DNA of 49,295 nucleotides from Pseudomonadota bacterium (GTDB lineage Bacteria > Bdellovibrionota_C > UBA2361 > OMIW01): NCBI GenBank assembly GCA_900299205.1, contig OMIW01000040.1, forward strand, positions 1 to 49,295, written 5' to 3'. This document shows, one piece after another, positions 4,856-22,345 of the stretch (positions within the stretch are counted from its first letter, which is position 1; each line of letters starts with the position of its first letter). The notes below the pieces were generated by a model. The model made no database searches and was not told where the DNA came from. It worked only from the letters and a program-made list of their open reading frames with translations. A program made the translations under genes and the position numbers.

Positions 4856-6382
4856 TTACGGATCACCTTTTTGGTCATCAGTGGTTACCTCGGGAGGAAG
4901 AATCGCTGATAAGGGAATTCTCGGCGAGGGACTGCCCTTTGGGGAGTCAGATAAATCCTGAGGTGCGGGAAAAACGGGTTCGTTGTTGGAATTTCCGTGT
5001 TTGCCGGGAACGAGAACAATTACCGATCTCGTTTCCTCCTTGTATATTTTGAGTGGGTTCCGAGATCCATTCCAAAGAAAGGGAAGGGGATTTCCCCGAA
5101 GGATAGCAGCATCAAAACCTGCAGATGCTGGGCTTGTTCCGTCAATATCTGCGTGTCTGCTCTGCAGCACGATAGCTCCCAAGGGAACTTTGCCCAGGTA
5201 TACCGCTTTAATAAAATCATTTGGTGAGAGAACATTCACCCTGAAGGACCCGTAGGAAGAATTCAGGATAACCTCTTCGGCTGATCCGAGAGGGTTTAGC
5301 GATTGATAGCCAAAATCGTGAACAAGTTGCGCGCCCAATCCGCGCGGATTGTTTCCAATATCCTTCCCCGTTTCCAGTGGATTGGGTATGCCCGCAGCTT
5401 CCATCGTTTTGAGAACCGCCGTAACACATTCGCCGGGGAGGGTTTCAACAAGAGGACCAGTTGACAATCGCTTCAGCCATCCACCCCTGGGGAGGGATAA
5501 CTTTGATTCGAGAGATTGGGGTAAGGCATCCGTTGAGGACGGCTGTTCTTCCATCATGCGGAATATTGGGGGGACACCTCGAGAAAGGTAATATGTACGA
5601 AATCCCTCCTCCCCGCGAGGGTCGAAGAGGGCCTCTTTTTCTTTGAATACCTTCTCCAATCCCTCCAAATATCCCAAAACTCCCTGGGTTCCCCGCACTC
5701 GGGGCTCGCCCGCGCTACCACCACTCCCGGCAAAATATCCCAGCCAAACCGCTGATTGCATCAATCCCTTTGAATAGGTCCTCCCGATCTCCCCGGCGTA
5801 AAAACGGTCGATGGTCTCCGTCATTTGCACAAACTGCTCCGGAGTCTCTCTTCTCCACCGAAGATCCTCGAGGAATCTTCTCGCAGATTCCTCATCGATC
5901 AGTCCCTGCTTGGTCAGGCTGTTCAACTTTTCTCGAGCGGCGAACTTTGTAACTCTCTGTCGGACGGAGGGGGGGGAAGTTGCCTCAGTTTCTTGCGAAT
6001 CAAAAAGGGCACTATGCCCACTGAAGGGCGTAATAGGGGGAGTGACAAGCCCACTAAAAGGGGAGTTTACCTCAGTAGGGGCTCGAAGCTCATTGAGGGT
6101 CGAAGAGCTCATAAGCCAGGGATTGTCAGAGAAGTTCCCCTCAGTGGCATGAAGATGTTCGTCTCGTTGAGCTCCTAAGCCTGAAGATGCGGGATCAGAC
6201 CCGATTCCCGGTGGCGTGGTTGAGGGGCTTTTGATTACGCGACCAGGCCTGTCTGATCTAGGCAACGGTCTCGAGACGGGGGTTCCGGGTCCCAATTCAC
6301 TCACTCCGCCTGGGCTGGCTGAAACGAGAAAGCTGAGCAATGGTGCCAGCGTTTTTTTCACAACGGGCCCCATCTCTACCAT
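4856..6382 (-). CDS. Hypothetical protein; Ser/Pro-rich N-terminal half, C-terminal region weakly resembling a cysteine-peptidase fold
   Basis: 508-aa ORF; disordered N-terminal half, helical spacer, then TLPGECVTAVLKTMEAAGIPNP...VPLGAIVLQSRHADIDG...GFDAAILRG. The catalytic assignment is uncertain. Confidence 0.65.
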   Translation of the reverse strand: MVEMGPVVKKTLAPLLSFLVSASPGGVSELGPGTPVSRPLPRSDRPGRVIKSPSTTPPGIGSDPASSGLGAQRDEHLHATEGNFSDNPWLMSSSTLNELRAPTEVNSPFSGLVTPPITPFSGHSALFDSQETEATSPPSVRQRVTKFAAREKLNSLTKQGLIDEESARRFLEDLRWRRETPEQFVQMTETIDRFYAGEIGRTYSKGLMQSAVWLGYFAGSGGSAGEPRVRGTQGVLGYLEGLEKVFKEKEALFDPRGEEGFRTYYLSRGVPPIFRMMEEQPSSTDALPQSLESKLSLPRGGWLKRLSTGPLVETLPGECVTAVLKTMEAAGIPNPLETGKDIGNNPRGLGAQLVHDFGYQSLNPLGSAEEVILNSSYGSFRVNVLSPNDFIKAVYLGKVPLGAIVLQSRHADIDGTSPASAGFDAAILRGNPLPFLWNGSRNPLKIYKEETRSVIVLVPGKHGNSNNEPVFPAPQDLSDSPKGSPSPRIPLSAILPPEVTTDDQKGDP

Positions 6383-11136: not shown

Positions 11137-11742
11137 ATGACCAATTCGGAGAGAAAAGTTGGGCGGCGGCCATCCTCGGGCTCTGTGCATGAGGCTCGGA
11201 CTCAGTTGGCCTCGATTGAGACGTTATTGGCCGAACTGAGGATAAAATATGAGCAGTACTTTGCGGGCATTCTTCAATTTGAGCCTTTAAGGGAACATCA
11301 ACAGGTGATAAGGGAATTTCGTGTTTTGCATAAAGCTCCGGGCAAAAGCTCCGCATTAAACTATCACCTCCGTTCAATTGAGAGCCGATACCAAAGCTAT
11401 AATACTTACTGGCAGCGGATAATGAAGGAGCGAGAGGGGGGCATCTATAAGAGGGATGTCTTCAAAGCAGATCTCAGAGATTCCTACGGACGGGAAAAAG
11501 CGCGCTCCCAAACCGTTGAAGGTAAGGCTGAGAGGGAGATTCAAGAGCTGTTCGCTCATTATAAGGCAGCTATCTCTGCTGCATCGGTCAGTAGCGCAGC
11601 ACTGAACATCTCGCGGTTCGAAGAGGTAATAAAAAGAACAGCCCATTCATGGTCGTTGAAAAACGAGGGGAAAAAACCTCAATTTCGGGTTCTCTCACAA
11701 GGGAATAAGGTAACAATCCAAGTAATTGACCCGGACGGCTAG
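11137..11742 (+). CDS. MXAN_5187 C-terminal-domain-like protein
   Basis: LRIKYEQYFAGILQFEPLREHQQVIREFRVL...SALNYHLRSIESRYQSYNTYWQRIMKEREGGIYKRD recalls the domain known from Myxococcus and related bacteria (recognised from memory). Confidence 0.65.
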   Translation: MTNSERKVGRRPSSGSVHEARTQLASIETLLAELRIKYEQYFAGILQFEPLREHQQVIREFRVLHKAPGKSSALNYHLRSIESRYQSYNTYWQRIMKEREGGIYKRDVFKADLRDSYGREKARSQTVEGKAEREIQELFAHYKAAISAASVSSAALNISRFEEVIKRTAHSWSLKNEGKKPQFRVLSQGNKVTIQVIDPDG

Positions 11743-13330: not shown

Positions 13331-13696
13331 ATGTCAGTGAAAGATTCGCGAGACCTGATGATCTCGGAAGTACTCGAGCGGCTCGACGGCGATATGGGTT
13401 TTTTTCTCGAGCTAGCGACTGAATTTTTGGCGGGATTCGAGACAAGTTGGCGACAGCTCAAGGATGCGGTCGAAGGAGGAGACCACGAGACTGTTCACTT
13501 TGAAGCCCACTCTCTCAAGTCAGCCCTTGCGAACCTCGGAGCGGTATCTGCGGCAGAAATCTGCGGCGAGCTGGAGAAGTTAGGGCGCTTCCGGGGTGAT
13601 TTGGGAGGTGGGGGAAGGTTGATATCGGGGTTGTGGGAGGCTGTCGGGAGGTTTCAAGGGTTGGTGGCAGCGGAGGAGAAAAAGTCAGTGGTTTAG
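13331..13696 (+). CDS. HPt (histidine phosphotransfer) domain protein
   Basis: 121 aa with EAHSLKSALANLGA around the phospho-His. Confidence 0.8.
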   Translation: MSVKDSRDLMISEVLERLDGDMGFFLELATEFLAGFETSWRQLKDAVEGGDHETVHFEAHSLKSALANLGAVSAAEICGELEKLGRFRGDLGGGGRLISGLWEAVGRFQGLVAAEEKKSVV

Positions 13697-13833: not shown

Positions 13834-15531
13834 ATGAACGGAAGTCTGCCAGCAGCAAGTCATCAAACATCCGGACCTGCCCCAGCTCAAACCCCGGTAA
13901 GCCCGGACTCCCTGACGCCGAGGCCGACCCCGGCAGACCAGCGCGCCTCGAGCCCCTCCTTGGGAGCCGTAACTCAAAAGATAGACGAATTAGTCGAGAA
14001 AAATCTGTTGAGTAAGACCCTCGGGGACAAGCTGAGAGAGAAGCTAACGGAGCATGGTGTAGGACTCATGCAGAAGGTAGGCGCGTCAGAGGTGTTGGCC
14101 GCACTTAAATCGATCGAGGATCTCAAGGCGAAGGGCTACAGCGATCAAGCGGTTAAAGCGGCAGCGGCTATCGGTTTTGGAAGGGGGGGCACGAAGGGAA
14201 TGCTCGATTATCTCCCGGCGGTGGGAGAGTCGGTCAGCCCGGACGACTTTTTAAATTATGCGCAGACCAACAATGCGTACAGTATTGTTTGGCTTCAGGA
14301 TAACTACAATCTCTTCGAGGAAGAGGAAGCAACGTTCCTTGATATTTCGACCTTGACCGCTCGCGCCCGTTCTTCGCTTTCGACCTACTATGGGAGCATC
14401 CTGGATCCTTCGGTAGATCCTCTTCGACAGCTCACGAGTTCTCAGGTTACTGGCTTTGAGAGCATCCTCACCTTCATATCGAAGGGAGAGGGTGGGTATA
14501 ATTCAATGAACCAGGGTACTTCGGGGGGGGAGATAATCGGAAGTACTCCTAACGCGGCCTCAATTCTGGGTAAAAACCTTACTGATATGACAATAGGCGA
14601 GGTGATGGGCCAACAGTCGAGTGGACGACTCTTTGCCGCTGGGAGGTATCAGATTATCCCATCGACCATGGTGGAGGCCGTGAGGTATGCGGGGCTATCG
14701 TCAAATGACAAATTTTCGCCGGAGAATCAAGACAAACTTGCAATTGCACTGATACTTCACAAGAGACCAAAGCTTGGTGAGTATTTGTTGGGTAAGCATA
14801 ATAATCTTCATCTTGCGATGCGAGAGGCGGCACTGGAATGGGCATCTTTGCCTGACCCAGACACGGGCAATACCATGTACGGGAGTGGAAACAGGGCCCT
14901 TCATTCGGTATCGGCAGTGTCGGAGGCTTTACGGGCTGCAAGAATAAATATCGTCAATGCCTCTGCCTCAGGACCCTCAAATGGGAGCTCTCCCTCGACT
15001 CCTGCCCGAACGTCTCAATCAGCGACAGAGATTGCTCGAGGAATGCCTCGGAGGGAGTATGTATTGGGTCAGCACGATTGCTCTACCTTTACGAGGGACG
15101 TTCTAACGCGATATTTAGGTCGCCAGTTAACAGAAGAAGAGTCTCAGAGGGTGATGATTGGATATAACCTTGGAAGCGGTTCACCAATTGAAGCGTACAA
15201 CAGGGCTGTCTCGAGCGGTGACCCTCGAGTCAGGGGGGCAGCAGGTTGGGTGGATGAATCTGGTTTGGGGACCAGAAAACCCCTCAATAACATCACTGAG
15301 GCCGATATTCAGAGTGGAGTAGTAGCCCAGGTTCATTGGGCCAAAGGGGGGGGGCATTCAGGTTTTATTACTCGTATCAAAAGGGATTCGCAGGGGAACA
15401 TATCGGGTTTCTACATGCTCACTGCGCACTCAGTCGCGGATAGTTCGGGCAAAACTGGCAACTATGAGGCATTTATCTCGATGTCCGAAGTCAAGGGAGT
15501 CGTCGCAGCTTCTCTGAGGAAAACGGCTTGA
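13834..15531 (+). CDS. Putative bifunctional peptidoglycan hydrolase: lysozyme-like region plus C-terminal NlpC/P60-like cysteine peptidase
   Basis: ILTFISKGEGGYNSMNQGTSGG...GRLFAAGRYQIIPSTMVEAV (lysozyme/muramidase-like) and GQHDCSTFTRDVL...AKGGGHSGFITRI...MLTAHS (Cys-His-His pattern). Start uncertain: the ORF is open from 13633; ATG at 13834 preferred. Confidence 0.7.
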   Translation: MNGSLPAASHQTSGPAPAQTPVSPDSLTPRPTPADQRASSPSLGAVTQKIDELVEKNLLSKTLGDKLREKLTEHGVGLMQKVGASEVLAALKSIEDLKAKGYSDQAVKAAAAIGFGRGGTKGMLDYLPAVGESVSPDDFLNYAQTNNAYSIVWLQDNYNLFEEEEATFLDISTLTARARSSLSTYYGSILDPSVDPLRQLTSSQVTGFESILTFISKGEGGYNSMNQGTSGGEIIGSTPNAASILGKNLTDMTIGEVMGQQSSGRLFAAGRYQIIPSTMVEAVRYAGLSSNDKFSPENQDKLAIALILHKRPKLGEYLLGKHNNLHLAMREAALEWASLPDPDTGNTMYGSGNRALHSVSAVSEALRAARINIVNASASGPSNGSSPSTPARTSQSATEIARGMPRREYVLGQHDCSTFTRDVLTRYLGRQLTEEESQRVMIGYNLGSGSPIEAYNRAVSSGDPRVRGAAGWVDESGLGTRKPLNNITEADIQSGVVAQVHWAKGGGHSGFITRIKRDSQGNISGFYMLTAHSVADSSGKTGNYEAFISMSEVKGVVAASLRKTA

Positions 15532-15716
15532 TGAGAGCACAGTTGTCGGGGAGCGGGTTAAGGATAGAGAGAGGAGGAAAAAGGGCGGTATGCGTGAAGG
15601 ATGGCCTTTGAAGGAACCCGTGGGAACGGTGGATTACCGATGGCTTGAATTGAAACAGACCTTGGTGTCGAACCCGTTCGTGAGATCGTCAATAAGGGGG
15701 GTAAAAAAAGTCTTTC

Positions 15717-16775
15717 ATGCCAGAACGTACTCCACCACCCTCTAATACCACCCCCTCTCTGGGCGCTTTCAATTGGAATGGTGGATGGGTTGGAGTTATC
15801 AATGAGGGTTTTCAGGTCAAACTTGGCTACACCAATAACGGATATCGCGCAGTTCAGACATCATCAGCGGTATATCGAATCCCCGATGGAGCGCAGTCTC
15901 GTGCCGAAATAGTCGCCTGGCTTAAAGAAGCATATCGCTCCGGTGCTATCTCGGGAGTCTATGATTTAAACCAAACCTCCGGGAGCTCTTTCTCGCCGAC
16001 CGGGGGTGAAGTCCGAAAGCTATGGCAAATTTACAAAGGGTCGTTTGAGGTTTTACAGAGGTACAATGAGTCCCCTGGCTATGGGACGCGACAGGTTAGC
16101 GATGCATTGACGAGAGTGCGGAGAGCTTTGGAGCCGTACGCTCGTGGATTTACCGAAGAACCGGGACAGGTACAAGATGCTATCAAGGCTCTCGGAGACC
16201 TTCAGCGTCAGTTAAACCGGGCTCTGAAATTACCAGGCTCCCAAGACTCGACATGGCTTTCCTCAGTAGGAGGCCAGTTGGAAAAAAAAGAGGCGGGTCA
16301 ACCCTACGAACTCGGAGTAAATGATTGCTCGATATTTATCAGTTCTCTTCTGAAGAGTCGGTTTCTCGTGAAAGAGAGCGACCTCGATCGCATCATGATC
16401 AGGGACACCCCACCATACGATGAACTTATCCGCACAGATGATGAAAGAGCCCTCGGTCCGGTGGGCTGGCTGGTCAAGGAAGAGGGGTGGCAGCGAACGA
16501 CTCTAGAGCAGCTCACTCCGAGAGAATTGAGGGAGGGTGCTGTTGCACAGATTACCTGGGCAAAGGGAGGGGGACACTCGGTTTTAATAACAGACGTTGT
16601 GCGCGATTCCCGCGGAAACGTTACCGGTTTTCAGGCGCTCAGCGCCCATTCCTTGCCGAATCCAAAAACGGGTCAGACGGGTATTTATTCCGCTTTTATT
16701 CCCCTTTCGGAGGTGAGGGCAGGTTCAAAGGGGGTAGCGGTTGCTGTTGAAGTACGTAACGAGGGAGGCCGGTGA
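15717..16775 (+). CDS. Putative NlpC/P60-like cysteine peptidase, C-terminal paralogue of the preceding gene
   Basis: ELGVNDCSIFISSLL...REGAVAQITWAKGGGHSVLITDVVRDSRGNVTGFQALSAHSLPNPKTGQTGIYSAFIPLSEV closely parallels the C-terminus of 13834-15531. Confidence 0.7.
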   Translation: MPERTPPPSNTTPSLGAFNWNGGWVGVINEGFQVKLGYTNNGYRAVQTSSAVYRIPDGAQSRAEIVAWLKEAYRSGAISGVYDLNQTSGSSFSPTGGEVRKLWQIYKGSFEVLQRYNESPGYGTRQVSDALTRVRRALEPYARGFTEEPGQVQDAIKALGDLQRQLNRALKLPGSQDSTWLSSVGGQLEKKEAGQPYELGVNDCSIFISSLLKSRFLVKESDLDRIMIRDTPPYDELIRTDDERALGPVGWLVKEEGWQRTTLEQLTPRELREGAVAQITWAKGGGHSVLITDVVRDSRGNVTGFQALSAHSLPNPKTGQTGIYSAFIPLSEVRAGSKGVAVAVEVRNEGGR

Positions 16776-16780
16776 GCTCT

Positions 16781-19700
16781 TTACTGCCTGCCAAGCTCTC
16801 GCCCCCACGGCGTGTTCCCTCCTCGAAGCCCTGCGGGTGATCCTTGAAAAATGACCCGTCCCCCCGCCTCTGCGGCACCAGGCCCCATTTCGATAACATG
16901 ATCTGCTGCCATCAAGAGATCGAGATCGTGTTCAATACATAGGACGGAGTGGCCACGCTCGACGAGCGTGTGCAGAACAGAAACCAATTTTCTAACATCT
17001 GCACGATGCAGGCCGATGGTGGGTTCATCAAGAAGGTAGACGGTGTGGCGGGTTCGATTTTGTGCAAGCTCCTGGACGAGTTTGATTCTCTGGGCCTCGC
17101 CACCAGAGAGAGTGGATGAACGTTGTCCAATCGTCAGGTATCCGAGTCCGAGGTCGCACGCGAGCGCTGTGATTCGATGGATTTTTTTGTGGGCAGAAAA
17201 AAGCTCTCGAGCCTCGTTCAATGAGAGAGAGAGTACTTCATTCACTGAATATCCTCGATAGCGTATGTGGGTAATGTCATCGATAAACCGGGCCCCGTCA
17301 CACGCTTCACACGTCATCGATGCTTCTGAGAGAAAGCTCATCTGGAGGGATATCGTACCGAGGCCTCCGCAGGTTGCGCACCTCCCACGCCCGGCATTAA
17401 AAGAGAAGTCGCTCGCCGACCATCCGAGCGTTTTGGCCTCCACAGTCGAGGCAAAGAGTTTACGGATGTCATCCCAAATGCCGAGATATGATGCTGGCAC
17501 CGAGCGGCTATGGCTGCCGATAGGTGTCTGATCGATTGAAACAAGAGTGCCGAGGTCGAAAGTGGAGCGGACAAAACACCCGCCGTTTTTGAAGACCGTC
17601 TCTACGCCGCGACCTCGAGAGCTTCGGCCCTCTGAGATGGTCTTTGCGAGCATATCGTTCAATAGCGTACTTTTCCCCGCACCAGAGACACCAGCGATAG
17701 CCACAAAACGCTGGAGGGGGACAGTAAGGGTGAGATCTTTTACGGTCCGACACGAGCCTTCGATATGAAGAACGGCCGGAGCGGGCGCAGGTTCTGTTTG
17801 TTCGCTCTCCGATTTGGCTTTTGTTCGCTCACCCTCGTGATATCGGGGTGTTGATTCGTGCACTTCAAAGAGCCGTTCACCCCCGAAGCTCTTTGAGAAA
17901 GACGAGGCTGATCCCTGAAAGATAACGTGTCCACCTTCTGCACCACCACCGGGACCTATCTCGATTATCTGATCGCACGAAGCGATAGTTGAAGGATCGT
18001 GCTCGATCACGACCACTGTGTTTCCCGCGTCTTTGAGCTTCGCTATTTGTTTGAGAACGAGACGATTATCGCGGGGATGCAGCCCAGCGCTCGGTTCATC
18101 AAAAAGGTAGAGGACTCCGGTCAATGGGGAGCCCATGGCGGCTGCAAGCCGCAGCCGTTGAAGCTCGCCTCCTGAAAGTGTGTGACTTGCACGATCGAGA
18201 GGAAGCGTGCCAATCCCAAGAGCGATGAGGTGATTTATCCGAGAGGAGATCTCCGTAAATATTGGTTCAGCAACTGGTCGCTGATGGGATGTGAGGGGAA
18301 TAGATTCAAGAAAGGGTATCAGTTCGTGAGCAGGGAGGTGAGAGGCTTCTCCGATCGAGCAATCCGCAAGGCGCAGCGATTGACCTATCTTATTGATCCT
18401 TGTTCCATCGCACCCGTGGCACGGTTCTCCGCACGCATTTACCCCAAGACCATCACACGAGTCGCACCTTCCGCGCTTTGAGTGAAAGCTTAGATCCTCC
18501 GGGTCGAGGGTAAGGTATCCACGTTTACACACTGGGCACATCCTTGTTGAGCTTAGGACGGTCTCTCCCGACTCTGAGAGCGCGATTGCTTGTCCCCCAC
18601 CCAGGCTGAGTGCAAGCGATACTGCTGATGTTATCAAATCATCATCGGTCCGAGTGGGATCTATCTTTGCGACCACAAAGTCGATCGAGTGGGCCTTGCT
18701 CTTTTCTAATCCTTCTAAGCAGGAGGTTGCCTTGCAGAAGATACCATCGACCCGGACTTCCTGAATCTCTGAAGTAATAGCTCGCTGGAATATCGGTTTA
18801 TGATTTCCCTTTTTCTTAACCACAATCGGGGCGAGGAGCCGAAGGGATCGGCCCGGCACCAGGCGCAGCTGTCCTACCATATCGGAGAGGGTGCCTCCGG
18901 TGATAACTGCATCGGGGTGCTCCACGCAGTGTTGAGTGCCGAGCTTGACGAAGAGTAGCCTGAGAAATTGATAGACCTCCGTGATTGTCCCCACCGTTGA
19001 GAGTGTGCCAGGGGATGAGGCGTGCTGATTAACATAAATGCTCGGCGGAATGTTCTCCACACTATCGAGATCGGGGCGTCTGACGTCCTTGATAAATTGT
19101 TGTGCGTACGGAGAGAGACAATCGAGATATCGTCGCTGCCCCTCAGCGAAGAGGATATCTTTTGCAATAGTCGATTTTCCTGATCCGCTCACCCCCGTAA
19201 TGGCGATGGTTCTTTCAAGCGGTATATCGAGATCCACCCCCCGCAGGTTATGTTCTCGGGCACCTCGAATTTTGATCGAGTGGTTGATAATTTCGTCGCG
19301 GATTTCTCTCTCTTGTTCCCGCTTTTGGTGGGGTGAAATAGTATCCAAGTTCCTTGGATCGTTCTTCCTTTCCCCCAAATTATTCGCCTGATACTCCCTT
19401 AAATAGCGCGCGGTGAAGCTTGTTCCTTTGAACAACGCTAGCCCCTCAGGAGTGCCAGTAAAGAGAATCTTCCCCCCGCCCGCACCTCCCTCTGGTCCCA
19501 TATCAATAACCCAATCTGCTTCGTTAATAAAAGAGAGATTGTGCTCTATACACACAACTGTGTGCCCCCGATCTCTGAGTGCGCGACAAACCGTGACGAG
19601 ACGCATGACATCTCGAACGTGAAGCCCTGTTGTCGGTTCGTCAAAAATAACAAGAGATCCCGGGACCGTCGTAGAAGCGAGCGAGGACGAAGAAAGAGCG

Positions 19701-22345
19701 GAGGAGTCGCGGGAGCGGCTCTCCGTCTGCGAAATCAGGGGAACTAACTTTAATCGTTGCGCTTCTCCGCCAGATAATTCACTGAGCGAATGACCGAGGG
19801 TAAGATGGCCAAGTCCCAGAGATTGAAGAGTCTCGAGAGGGCCGAAAATCTTCCGATATTCCTTAAATAAAACGAGCGCATCCTCAACGGGAAGGTTAAG
19901 AAGATCGTCGACCGTTTTTCCGTTCCACTTGACCTCGAGCACACTCGGTTGAAAACGTTTGCCGAGACATGTTTCGCACACGAGATAGACATCAGATAGA
20001 AACTGCATATCCTCTTTGATGGCGCCACCTCCCTCACAGGTGAGGCAGCGACCCGCCTCAACATTGAATGAAAAAGATGATTTCGTGAGGGCGCGTGAGC
20101 GTGCGTCCTCGGTCTCAGCAAGGAGAGTTCGGATAGGGTCCCATATCTTCGTATAGGTGGCGATATTAGCCCGAGGACTCTTTGCAAGAGGGGTTTGATC
20201 AATTATGAGCAGTTGATCGATCAGATCAAATCCTTCGATATGGTGAGCGGGAGAGAAACCTAATGCTCGACGTTCGTATTCTCTTGCGAGTATCTCTTGG
20301 ACCAACGTGCTCTTTCCGCAACCCGAGACCCCGGTAATACAGACAAGCCTCCCGAGAGGAATGGAGAGGTGAAGATCGCGAATATTTCGGGCTGATGCTC
20401 CAACGATTGAAAGCGATCGGTTTTGTCCTTTCTCTTTTTTGTCGTCACGTGGTGGTGGCGTAAAGTCGATACCTCTCCAATCTGATGCGGGGCCGTGATA
20501 GACAATCTCGCCTCCCGCTGAACCACTCCCCGGCCCAAGTTCAATTATCTCCTCTGCTGCGCTGATTATTTGCGGATCATGCTCGACGACGGTGAGGGTA
20601 TTGCCGCGCTGGTGAAGGGTATGAAGTGACCCAAGGAGTCGATCGCTATCGCGTGGATGAAGCCCGACAGAGGGTTCATCGAGAACAAAATGGGTCGAGG
20701 TAAGGCCACTTCCGAGAGCTCCGGCAAGGTTGACGCGCTGCGTTTCGCCCCCGGATAGGGTACGAGCGGCGCGGTCAAGGGTAAGGTAGGAAAGACCCAG
20801 ATCCTCGAGAAAAGAGAGGCGCGATCGGAAGGCCGCGAATAGCTCGCGCACCTCGCGAGGCAGCGAGTCGAAGGAGGTGCTCCTCTCGCGAAGTTGGTCG
20901 GTCCATACAAGAATATCTCCGACGGACTTCGACCACACCTCAGCAATCGACAGATCACCAATTCGATATGATAAAGCATCCTCTTTGAGTCGAGTGCCCT
21001 TGCATGATGAGCATATTTCCTGTTTGCGATACCGATTCAGAAATACCCGAACATGCATCTTGTATATCTTTTTCTCGAGCCATTCAAACCACGGCCTGAT
21101 GCCGCAGAAGCTCTTTGAATCGGAGGTAATAATCGTCGCTTTTTGTTCATCAGTCAGGCTCTGCCATGGCTGGTTTGTTGGAATTTTTTGATCGGCGCAG
21201 AATTTTTTAAGAGCTTTTCGCTCCCACTCAGCGGCATCACCATTCCAACATGCGATGCATCCTTCATCGATGGAGAGCCTCGGATCAGGGATGCAGCGCT
21301 CGATATCAGTTACCAGTACGCTGCCAAAACCCTTGCAGGTGGGGCACGCGCCGAGTGGGTGATTAAAAGAAAAAAGCCCCGGCCGAGGACGGAGGAGAGC
21401 CTGCTGGGAACGAGGGCACTGCGCCCGCTCCCAGAAATCGCTCCGAAGGTATGGTTGACCGAGGAGCGAACGGTTGCCACCCGACTGTTCAATTTGAGCA
21501 AAGGGGCGACGGGAGACGGCGGGGCCGTCCCCTTTGTGAAGGGGAAACCGAATCAGTGCACACCTTCCGCCCGAAAGGGCAAACGAGTGCTCGATTGCTT
21601 CTCGCAATCGGGAATGTTCAAGGTCGGATGGATCGCTCGATGCAGTGATAACTCGATCAAGCACCACCAGAATCTCCTCATCAGCCTTCAGCGCATCCTT
21701 TGATTTCTCGTCATCAATCGAAATAATAGCCCCGGTTTTTGGGGAGAGGATACGAGAAAATCCGAGAAGACCAAGACGGGCAAGCTCTGCTTTCAATGCC
21801 CCCCGTTTTTTTGGCAGGGCGAGTGGAGCAGCTATAAGAATTGGATGATGTGGGAAGAGCGCAATAATCGTCCTGAACCGATCCGCAAGCTGGGTAGGCG
21901 TCCACTGTTCAAGATTTATGCCACAGGTTCTGCATACCGGTTGCGAGAGCGCATTCCAGATTCCCTTGAGGTAATCGAGAAGCCCTGTCATTGATCCCAC
22001 AGTTGAGCGCGAGTTGTTTATCCGCGTTCGTTGCTGAATCGCGATCGTTGGTCGAACCTGTTCTACAAGCTCAACCTGCGGCTTTTTGACCTTATCAAAA
22101 AATTGCCGAACGTAGGGGCTAAATGTCTCAAGATACCGACGCTGTCCCTCGGCATAGATGGTGTCAAACGCCAACGACGATTTCCCTGAACCAGAGAGTC
22201 CTGTGATGACGGTGAAGGAATCGTGGGGTATACAGAGGGATATCTCCTTGAGATTGTGCTCTGCTGCGTGCTGAATGGTTAAAGCTCGAGGCTTTTTTGA
22301 GGGGGTTTCCACCCGAAAATCAGCTTTTTTTAAAACTTTAGTCAT
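16781..22345 (-). CDS. uvrA: Tandem-fused (dual) excinuclease ABC subunit UvrA
   Basis: 1854 aa; two UvrA-like halves, each with two ABC ATPase modules ([72 protein letters not shown]), CxxC zinc motifs and repeated LSGGE signatures. Confidence 0.95.

Follow-up and report, generated by a model that had tools for sequence, protein, structure and literature searches.

Two adjacent genes in a contig of 49,295 nucleotides (OMIW01000040.1, referred to in its entirety as the window) probably encode a bifunctional peptidoglycan hydrolase, P1, and a paralogous amidase or endopeptidase, P2, that leave the cytoplasm without the Sec system. This reading is supported by domain homology, conserved catalytic residues, the lack of an export signal and the presence of machinery genes, from which we infer catalysis, the bond that is cut, the export route and the target. 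The central domain of P1, a lysozyme or lytic transglycosylase of the phage virion type, would cut glycan strands by means of Glu219, and its C-terminal papain-like domain (Cys416-His508-His532) would cleave either the peptide stem or the amide between sugar and peptide. The tandem paralogue P2 carries the papain-like domain alone, on a different N-terminal half. Both proteins would exit without Sec, with their Pro/Ser/Thr-rich N-termini as the likely export signals. Their substrate would be peptidoglycan beyond the cytoplasm, in the wall of another bacterium (for predation or antagonism) or in the cell's own wall (for assembly of an apparatus). Transglycosylase and amidase activities are similarly joined in a single protein in Tae17, an effector of the type VI secretion system (T6SS) that kills bacteria (PMC11796386), to which P1 is likened by its predicted activities.

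The gene pair and its genomic setting

Both of the adjacent open reading frames (ORFs) described in a previous, sequence-only reading of this DNA are indeed open. P1 (13834-15531, + strand) is 565 aa long and consists of a Pro/Ser/Thr-rich N-terminus, a middle region, a phage-type lysozyme domain and a papain-like domain; its paralogue P2 (15717-16775, + strand; 352 aa) has another N-terminal half and lacks the lysozyme domain. The likely start of P1 is the ATG at 13834. Starting instead from a GTG in the same frame (13633) would lengthen the protein by 67 residues and make it overlap the 3' end of the upstream neighbour, a small gene for an Hpt-domain protein (13331-13696). Downstream of P2 lies the convergent uvrA (16781-22345, - strand), and an isocitrate-dehydrogenase-like gene is also among the neighbours. 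The same contig carries dnaN, recF, gyrB, cox genes, murJ and dnaE, and the locus therefore belongs to the host chromosome. The genes around the pair are host genes, with none recognised as a holin or phage structural gene, and no obvious immunity gene lies next to it; the missing adjacent immunity gene fits a predator, a role in the cell's own wall or an immunity gene located elsewhere.

Relatives of P1 and P2 were found in none of 56 other related genomes, a set that holds no members of the same family and whose nearest members come from other families of the same order. Scans of the genome and virus collections with a two-row alignment of the C-termini likewise retrieved none, and P2 had no match among phages. 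The lack of close relatives in the collections searched counts against the preferred reading.

Elsewhere in the window, the UvrA protein (1854 aa) is made up of two tandem UvrA-like halves that share 38% identity over 520 columns, and the ORFs at 4856-6382 (- strand, 508 aa) and 11137-11742 (+ strand, 201 aa) have no Pfam match above the cut-off.

A phage-type lysozyme domain in P1

The lysozyme domain of P1 (14434-14952, + strand; Glu219 codon at 14488-14490) was delimited by profile matches, sequence identity, alignment and a tree. Approximately residues 203-373 match lysis and virion families of the PHROG collection with E-values from 2e-31 to 1e-16, among them PHROG 90, 30077 and 37890 (2e-31 to 1e-20). 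Over some 160 residues the domain is 58-68% identical to viral proteins, namely virion lysozymes of Kyanoviridae and T4-like cyanophages; identity is 58.8% to a Prochlorococcus phage (cyanophage) protein annotated as 'endolysin' and reaches 68% with viral contigs of IMG/VR. Glu219 is invariant in the alignment, and the AGRYQ and EWASLP motifs are common to P1 and the viral proteins. The same invariant Glu and motifs link P1 to the lambda endolysin R, which hhalign aligned across the region from AGRYQ to EWASLP with a probability of 88.5 and an E-value of 2.7e-6; a profile search of the PDB retrieved lambda lysozyme only weakly (E 0.29). Since lambda R itself had no Pfam match in the same search, the missing Pfam match for the P1 lysozyme is uninformative. 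The muramidase-like region of the sequence-only reading is thus borne out and can be sharpened to a lambda-R-like lysozyme of the phage virion type.

In a quick tree P1 fell inside the set of viral sequences (SH-aLRT 83), which is consistent with capture of the domain from a virion gene of a T4-like phage. In most of the viral contigs examined the lysozyme domain is embedded in a large protein, and in phage P-RSM6 it is part of a 2340-base gene within the baseplate cluster, whereas P1 combines it with a papain-like domain and is encoded on a chromosome. No papain-like domain was seen in the viral lysozyme proteins examined.

The nesting of this domain among phage virion lysozymes would also suit phage genes, for lysis or for the virion, that have been domesticated, or a module for self-lysis, with products that act only upon breach of the membrane or through a holin. 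Phage lysozymes such as lambda R have no signal peptide. However, the P1 lysozyme lies outside any recognisable phage structural module, next to the isocitrate-dehydrogenase-like gene, the Hpt-domain gene and uvrA; the genome yielded no phage sheath marker, and the papain-like domain had no phage homologue in our searches. We regard this explanation of the pair as quite improbable.

The shared C-terminal domain

The C-terminal parts of P1 (14986-15528, + strand) and P2 (16269-16772, + strand) are homologous, with ~40-42% identity over the last ~150 residues (42% at P2 residues 193-335, E 5e-26). Identical in both are DCS, GW, Q..WAKGGGHS, RDS.GN..GF and AHS, so that the shared motifs noted from the sequence are confirmed as invariant between the two proteins. 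Searches of Pfam, NCBIfam and PDB sequences did not recognise the domain. The Pfam family NLPC_P60 (PF00877) matched P1 below threshold (E 0.056; 13.9 bits against a gathering cut-off of 23) and did not match P2; the PDB sequence searches were uninformative, and matches to dihydroxynaphthoyl-CoA synthase profiles (L013, L017 and PDB 6ojm) were discarded as chance look-alikes of 'GGGH'.

In a profile search of 285 genomes a single look-alike (L009) had the right motif, and it gave entry to an unnamed papain-like family. The phylum to which genome G056 belongs, probably Sumerlaeota, commonly has this family (25 of 40 genomes), which is also present in Planctomycetota, Myxococcota, Bacteroidota and others. 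Its motifs are YCSG, GDFVQxWR, GSGHS and YWSxQ, and its members are mostly Sec-exported, judging by their signal-like N-termini. The scanned members of this widespread family (L120-L149 and L150-L229; motif GDFVQxWRxxGSGHSVIF) had no Pfam match.

When a profile built from 26 members, with P1 and P2 left out, was run against the ORFs of the window, P2 was the top match (E 4e-5) and P1 the runner-up (E 0.016, Z=1000), the next ORF having an E-value of 4.2. Profile-profile comparison of the P1/P2 domain with the family by hhalign gave a probability of 92 and an E-value of 6e-7. The P2 residues Cys204 (Cys416 in P1), Gln278, Gly286 and His287 are invariant across 41 aligned relatives, and the third catalytic column holds Gln in 40 of the 41 and His in P1 and P2. 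The proposed triads are accordingly Cys416/His508/His532 in P1 (Cys416 codon at 15079-15081) and Cys204/His287/His311 in P2. Both proteins thus have the catalytic Cys-His-(His/Asn/Gln) arrangement of the papain superfamily, in columns conserved among the 41 relatives, and amidases of the NLPC_P60 and DUF1460 kinds are known to have Cys-His-His triads (PMC10318531).

P1 and P2 resemble the unnamed family in that Cys, Gln, the His of GGH/SGH and the third-site column align, but the family differs in its hydrophobic, signal-like N-terminus, its third-site Gln and its retention of GD...WR. In P1 and P2, GD is replaced by GV or GA and WR by HW or TW. The GD motif, together with Asp/Arg, is typical of the NlpC/P60-like papain superfamily (PMC10318531) and is missing from both proteins, a replacement that weighs against the hydrolase reading. 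With NlpC/P60 enzymes proper (PF00877, MEROPS C40) the pair shares a predicted papain-like fold, a Cys that opens a helix and Cys-His-His, but not the GD motif, and the Pfam match is below threshold (P1) or absent (P2).

Predicted structure of the papain-like domain

An AlphaFold2 model of the P2 domain, computed from a 43-row alignment, reached a pLDDT of 79.6 and a pTM of 0.76; it rests on the alignment to family relatives and is not independent of it. A helix starts at Cys204 (residue 20 of the construct) and is followed by a beta-sheet whose strands bear His287 and His311, which is the layout of the papain-like core. Among PDB entries Foldseek placed papain-like enzymes in the lead, IdeS/Mac-1 and then Tae1/Tse1, with marginal scores (E ~0.009-0.04; TM ~0.4, at most 0.44); a viral structure library gave nothing decisive. 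A model of P2 from two sequences had a pLDDT of 43 and was left out of the fold searches, and two alignments that had misplaced P2 on the lysozyme region were kept out of folding.

The Cys-His-His, NlpC/P60-like assignment of the sequence-only reading is hence supported by independent profiles and by a model of fair quality, and the structural check that it proposed gave a papain-like model with a helix from the Cys and His/His strands, albeit with weak similarity to known structures. Together, profiles and model support a papain-like domain of the NlpC/P60 type that would lie outside Pfam NLPC_P60. The marginal structural matches (E ~0.01-0.04, TM <=0.44) and the model's dependence on the relatives' alignment nevertheless stand against the preferred reading.

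Loss of the relatives' GD and WR signature, and the presence of IdeS-type proteases among the structural matches, would also be expected if the papain-like domains were dead as hydrolases or acted on another, cytoplasmic substrate, for instance as a protease or an acyl or amide transferase. Against this, both paralogues retain the Cys and the His together with a second His that is plausible as the third residue, and the papain-like domain of P1 is joined to a lysozyme; we consider a lost or different activity unlikely.

N-termini and the absence of a Sec signal

P1 begins with a Pro/Ser/Thr-rich segment (residues 1-45; 13834-13968, + strand), as judged from translation, hydropathy and composition, with PSLGA at its end. 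The following residues 46-200 (13969-14433, + strand) have no family match and no similarity to the N-terminal half of P2. That half (residues 1-184; 15717-16268, + strand) has a short Pro/Ser/Thr-rich tip with PSLGA and, in a low-confidence model, beta-rich and helical stretches.

Hydropathy gave no indication of a signal peptide or transmembrane helix in P1 or P2: the best mean Kyte-Doolittle value of any 12-mer in the first 60 residues was 0.57 for P1 and 0.71 for P2, and the result also holds for P1 with the GTG start. By contrast, all 33 papain-like relatives scored have an upstream 12-mer with a mean of at least 1.8 (above 2.2 in 26 of the 33). The claim that neither protein carries a Sec signal is thus supported both by hydropathy and by the contrast with the signal-like N-termini of the relatives.

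PSLGA, previously singled out as a motif shared near both N-termini, is present in both and is all that the two N-terminal halves have in common. As a clue it is weak: a shared 5-mer arose in 49 of 20,000 trials in which the first 50 residues were shuffled, and the idea of a general export tag was given up, no other N-terminal PSLGA standing out in the genome. Contig C91 encodes a Pro/Ser/Thr-rich protein of 387 aa (L235:4754-5917, + strand) that has no Pfam match; its by-eye similarity to P1 was dismissed, as it is not detectably related to the P1 N-terminus.

Secretion machinery and candidate roles

Secretion systems were inventoried by marker families in the ~90% complete assembly (206 contigs, 2.45 Mb). 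This search found neither the T6SS sheath gene VipB, nor the sheath marker of phages and extracellular contractile injection systems (eCIS; PF17482), nor the VirB4-type ATPase of type IV secretion (PF03135). The genome does have a flagellar type III system, with FlhA and a FliH-FliI-FliJ-like cluster. A second SctV, which fits the hrcV model better than that of FlhA, lies with SctJ at the start of contig C55 (C55:1-4400), and towards the end of contig C151 there are a second SctR, SctQ, a 94-aa ORF of SctS size and a TPR chaperone-like gene. These genes represent a divergent non-flagellar type III secretion system (T3SS; SctJ, SctV, SctQ and SctR) split over contig ends. No second type III ATPase (SctN) was found, the only one detected being of the flagellar type.

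Among the systems searched, the only protein-injection markers detected are those of type III machinery, which makes type III the leading, though unproven, export route for P1 and P2. Of the routes suggested from the sequence, then, T6SS and contractile or eCIS delivery lost ground with the absence of their markers, and type III gained it with the presence of a flagellar and a divergent non-flagellar set. Tae1/Tse1, a papain-like wall amidase that was among the best PDB matches despite weak E-values, and Tae17 are T6SS effectors, whereas in the P1/P2 genome VipB was not found and no immunity gene adjoins the pair. In a Mycetohabitans megaplasmid (NZ_CP062179.1, 297000-335000) the gene for a relative of the P1 lysozyme precedes an eCIS cluster by a few kb; an eCIS link through this relative was dropped, there being no sheath gene in the present genome. 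Several observations go against the preferred reading as far as the route is concerned: P1 and P2 have neither a T3SS gene nor a chaperone or a recognised secretion signal beside them, the T3SS genes lie apart from them, and the second set is spread over contig ends with only a flagellar-type ATPase.

The flagellar genes and the lack of an immunity gene beside the pair would suit a service to the cell's own envelope, with P1 and P2 opening peptidoglycan for assembly of the flagellum or the T3SS in the manner of FlgJ. FlgJ-type muramidases are exported by the flagellar type III apparatus, and a Sec-independent muramidase activity linked to assembly is established for them, which provides a precedent. 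Yet two activities in one protein and a lysozyme of phage derivation suit attack better than housekeeping, and P1 and P2 lie outside the flagellar cluster and are absent from the related genomes examined; we doubt this role.

Myxobacteria hold an early-branching, incomplete T3SS (PMC3459982), and in Myxococcus xanthus the lysis of prey requires a needleless T3SS*, the effectors of which are unknown (PMC10433427, PMC12075869). The present genome resembles M. xanthus in having a non-flagellar type III set, for which a lysis function would fit, but the search by marker families recovered no more than some of the genes of such a system. P1 and P2 could be lysis effectors of such a myxobacterial-like T3SS*, injected into prey or competitors and dissolving their walls. 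The divergent SctJ, SctV, SctQ and SctR, the TPR chaperone-like gene, the requirement of T3SS* for prey lysis with its missing effectors, and peptidoglycan-cutting domains without a Sec signal all point in this direction; P1 and P2 are, however, unlinked to the T3SS loci and SctN was not found, and we rate this specific assignment as fairly unlikely. Still less probable is the more elaborate version in which the pair are wall-dissolving effectors of a primitive, needleless-type T3SS used against other bacteria, and hence an instance of the missing lysis effectors of the myxobacterial T3SS*, and P1 arose by fusion of a phage virion lysozyme with a papain-like amidase whose Sec signal was lost.

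The combination of a lysozyme with a papain-like domain is unusual. Under the preferred reading of a Sec-independent hydrolase pair, P1 and P2 suggest a route from a phage wall-drilling enzyme and a wall amidase to an exported pair that does not depend on Sec. A widespread papain-like family whose tested members have no Pfam match, and which probably consists of wall enzymes, also came to light. Finally, P1 and P2 are concrete candidates for effectors of T3SS*-dependent lysis in a lineage outside the model myxobacteria.
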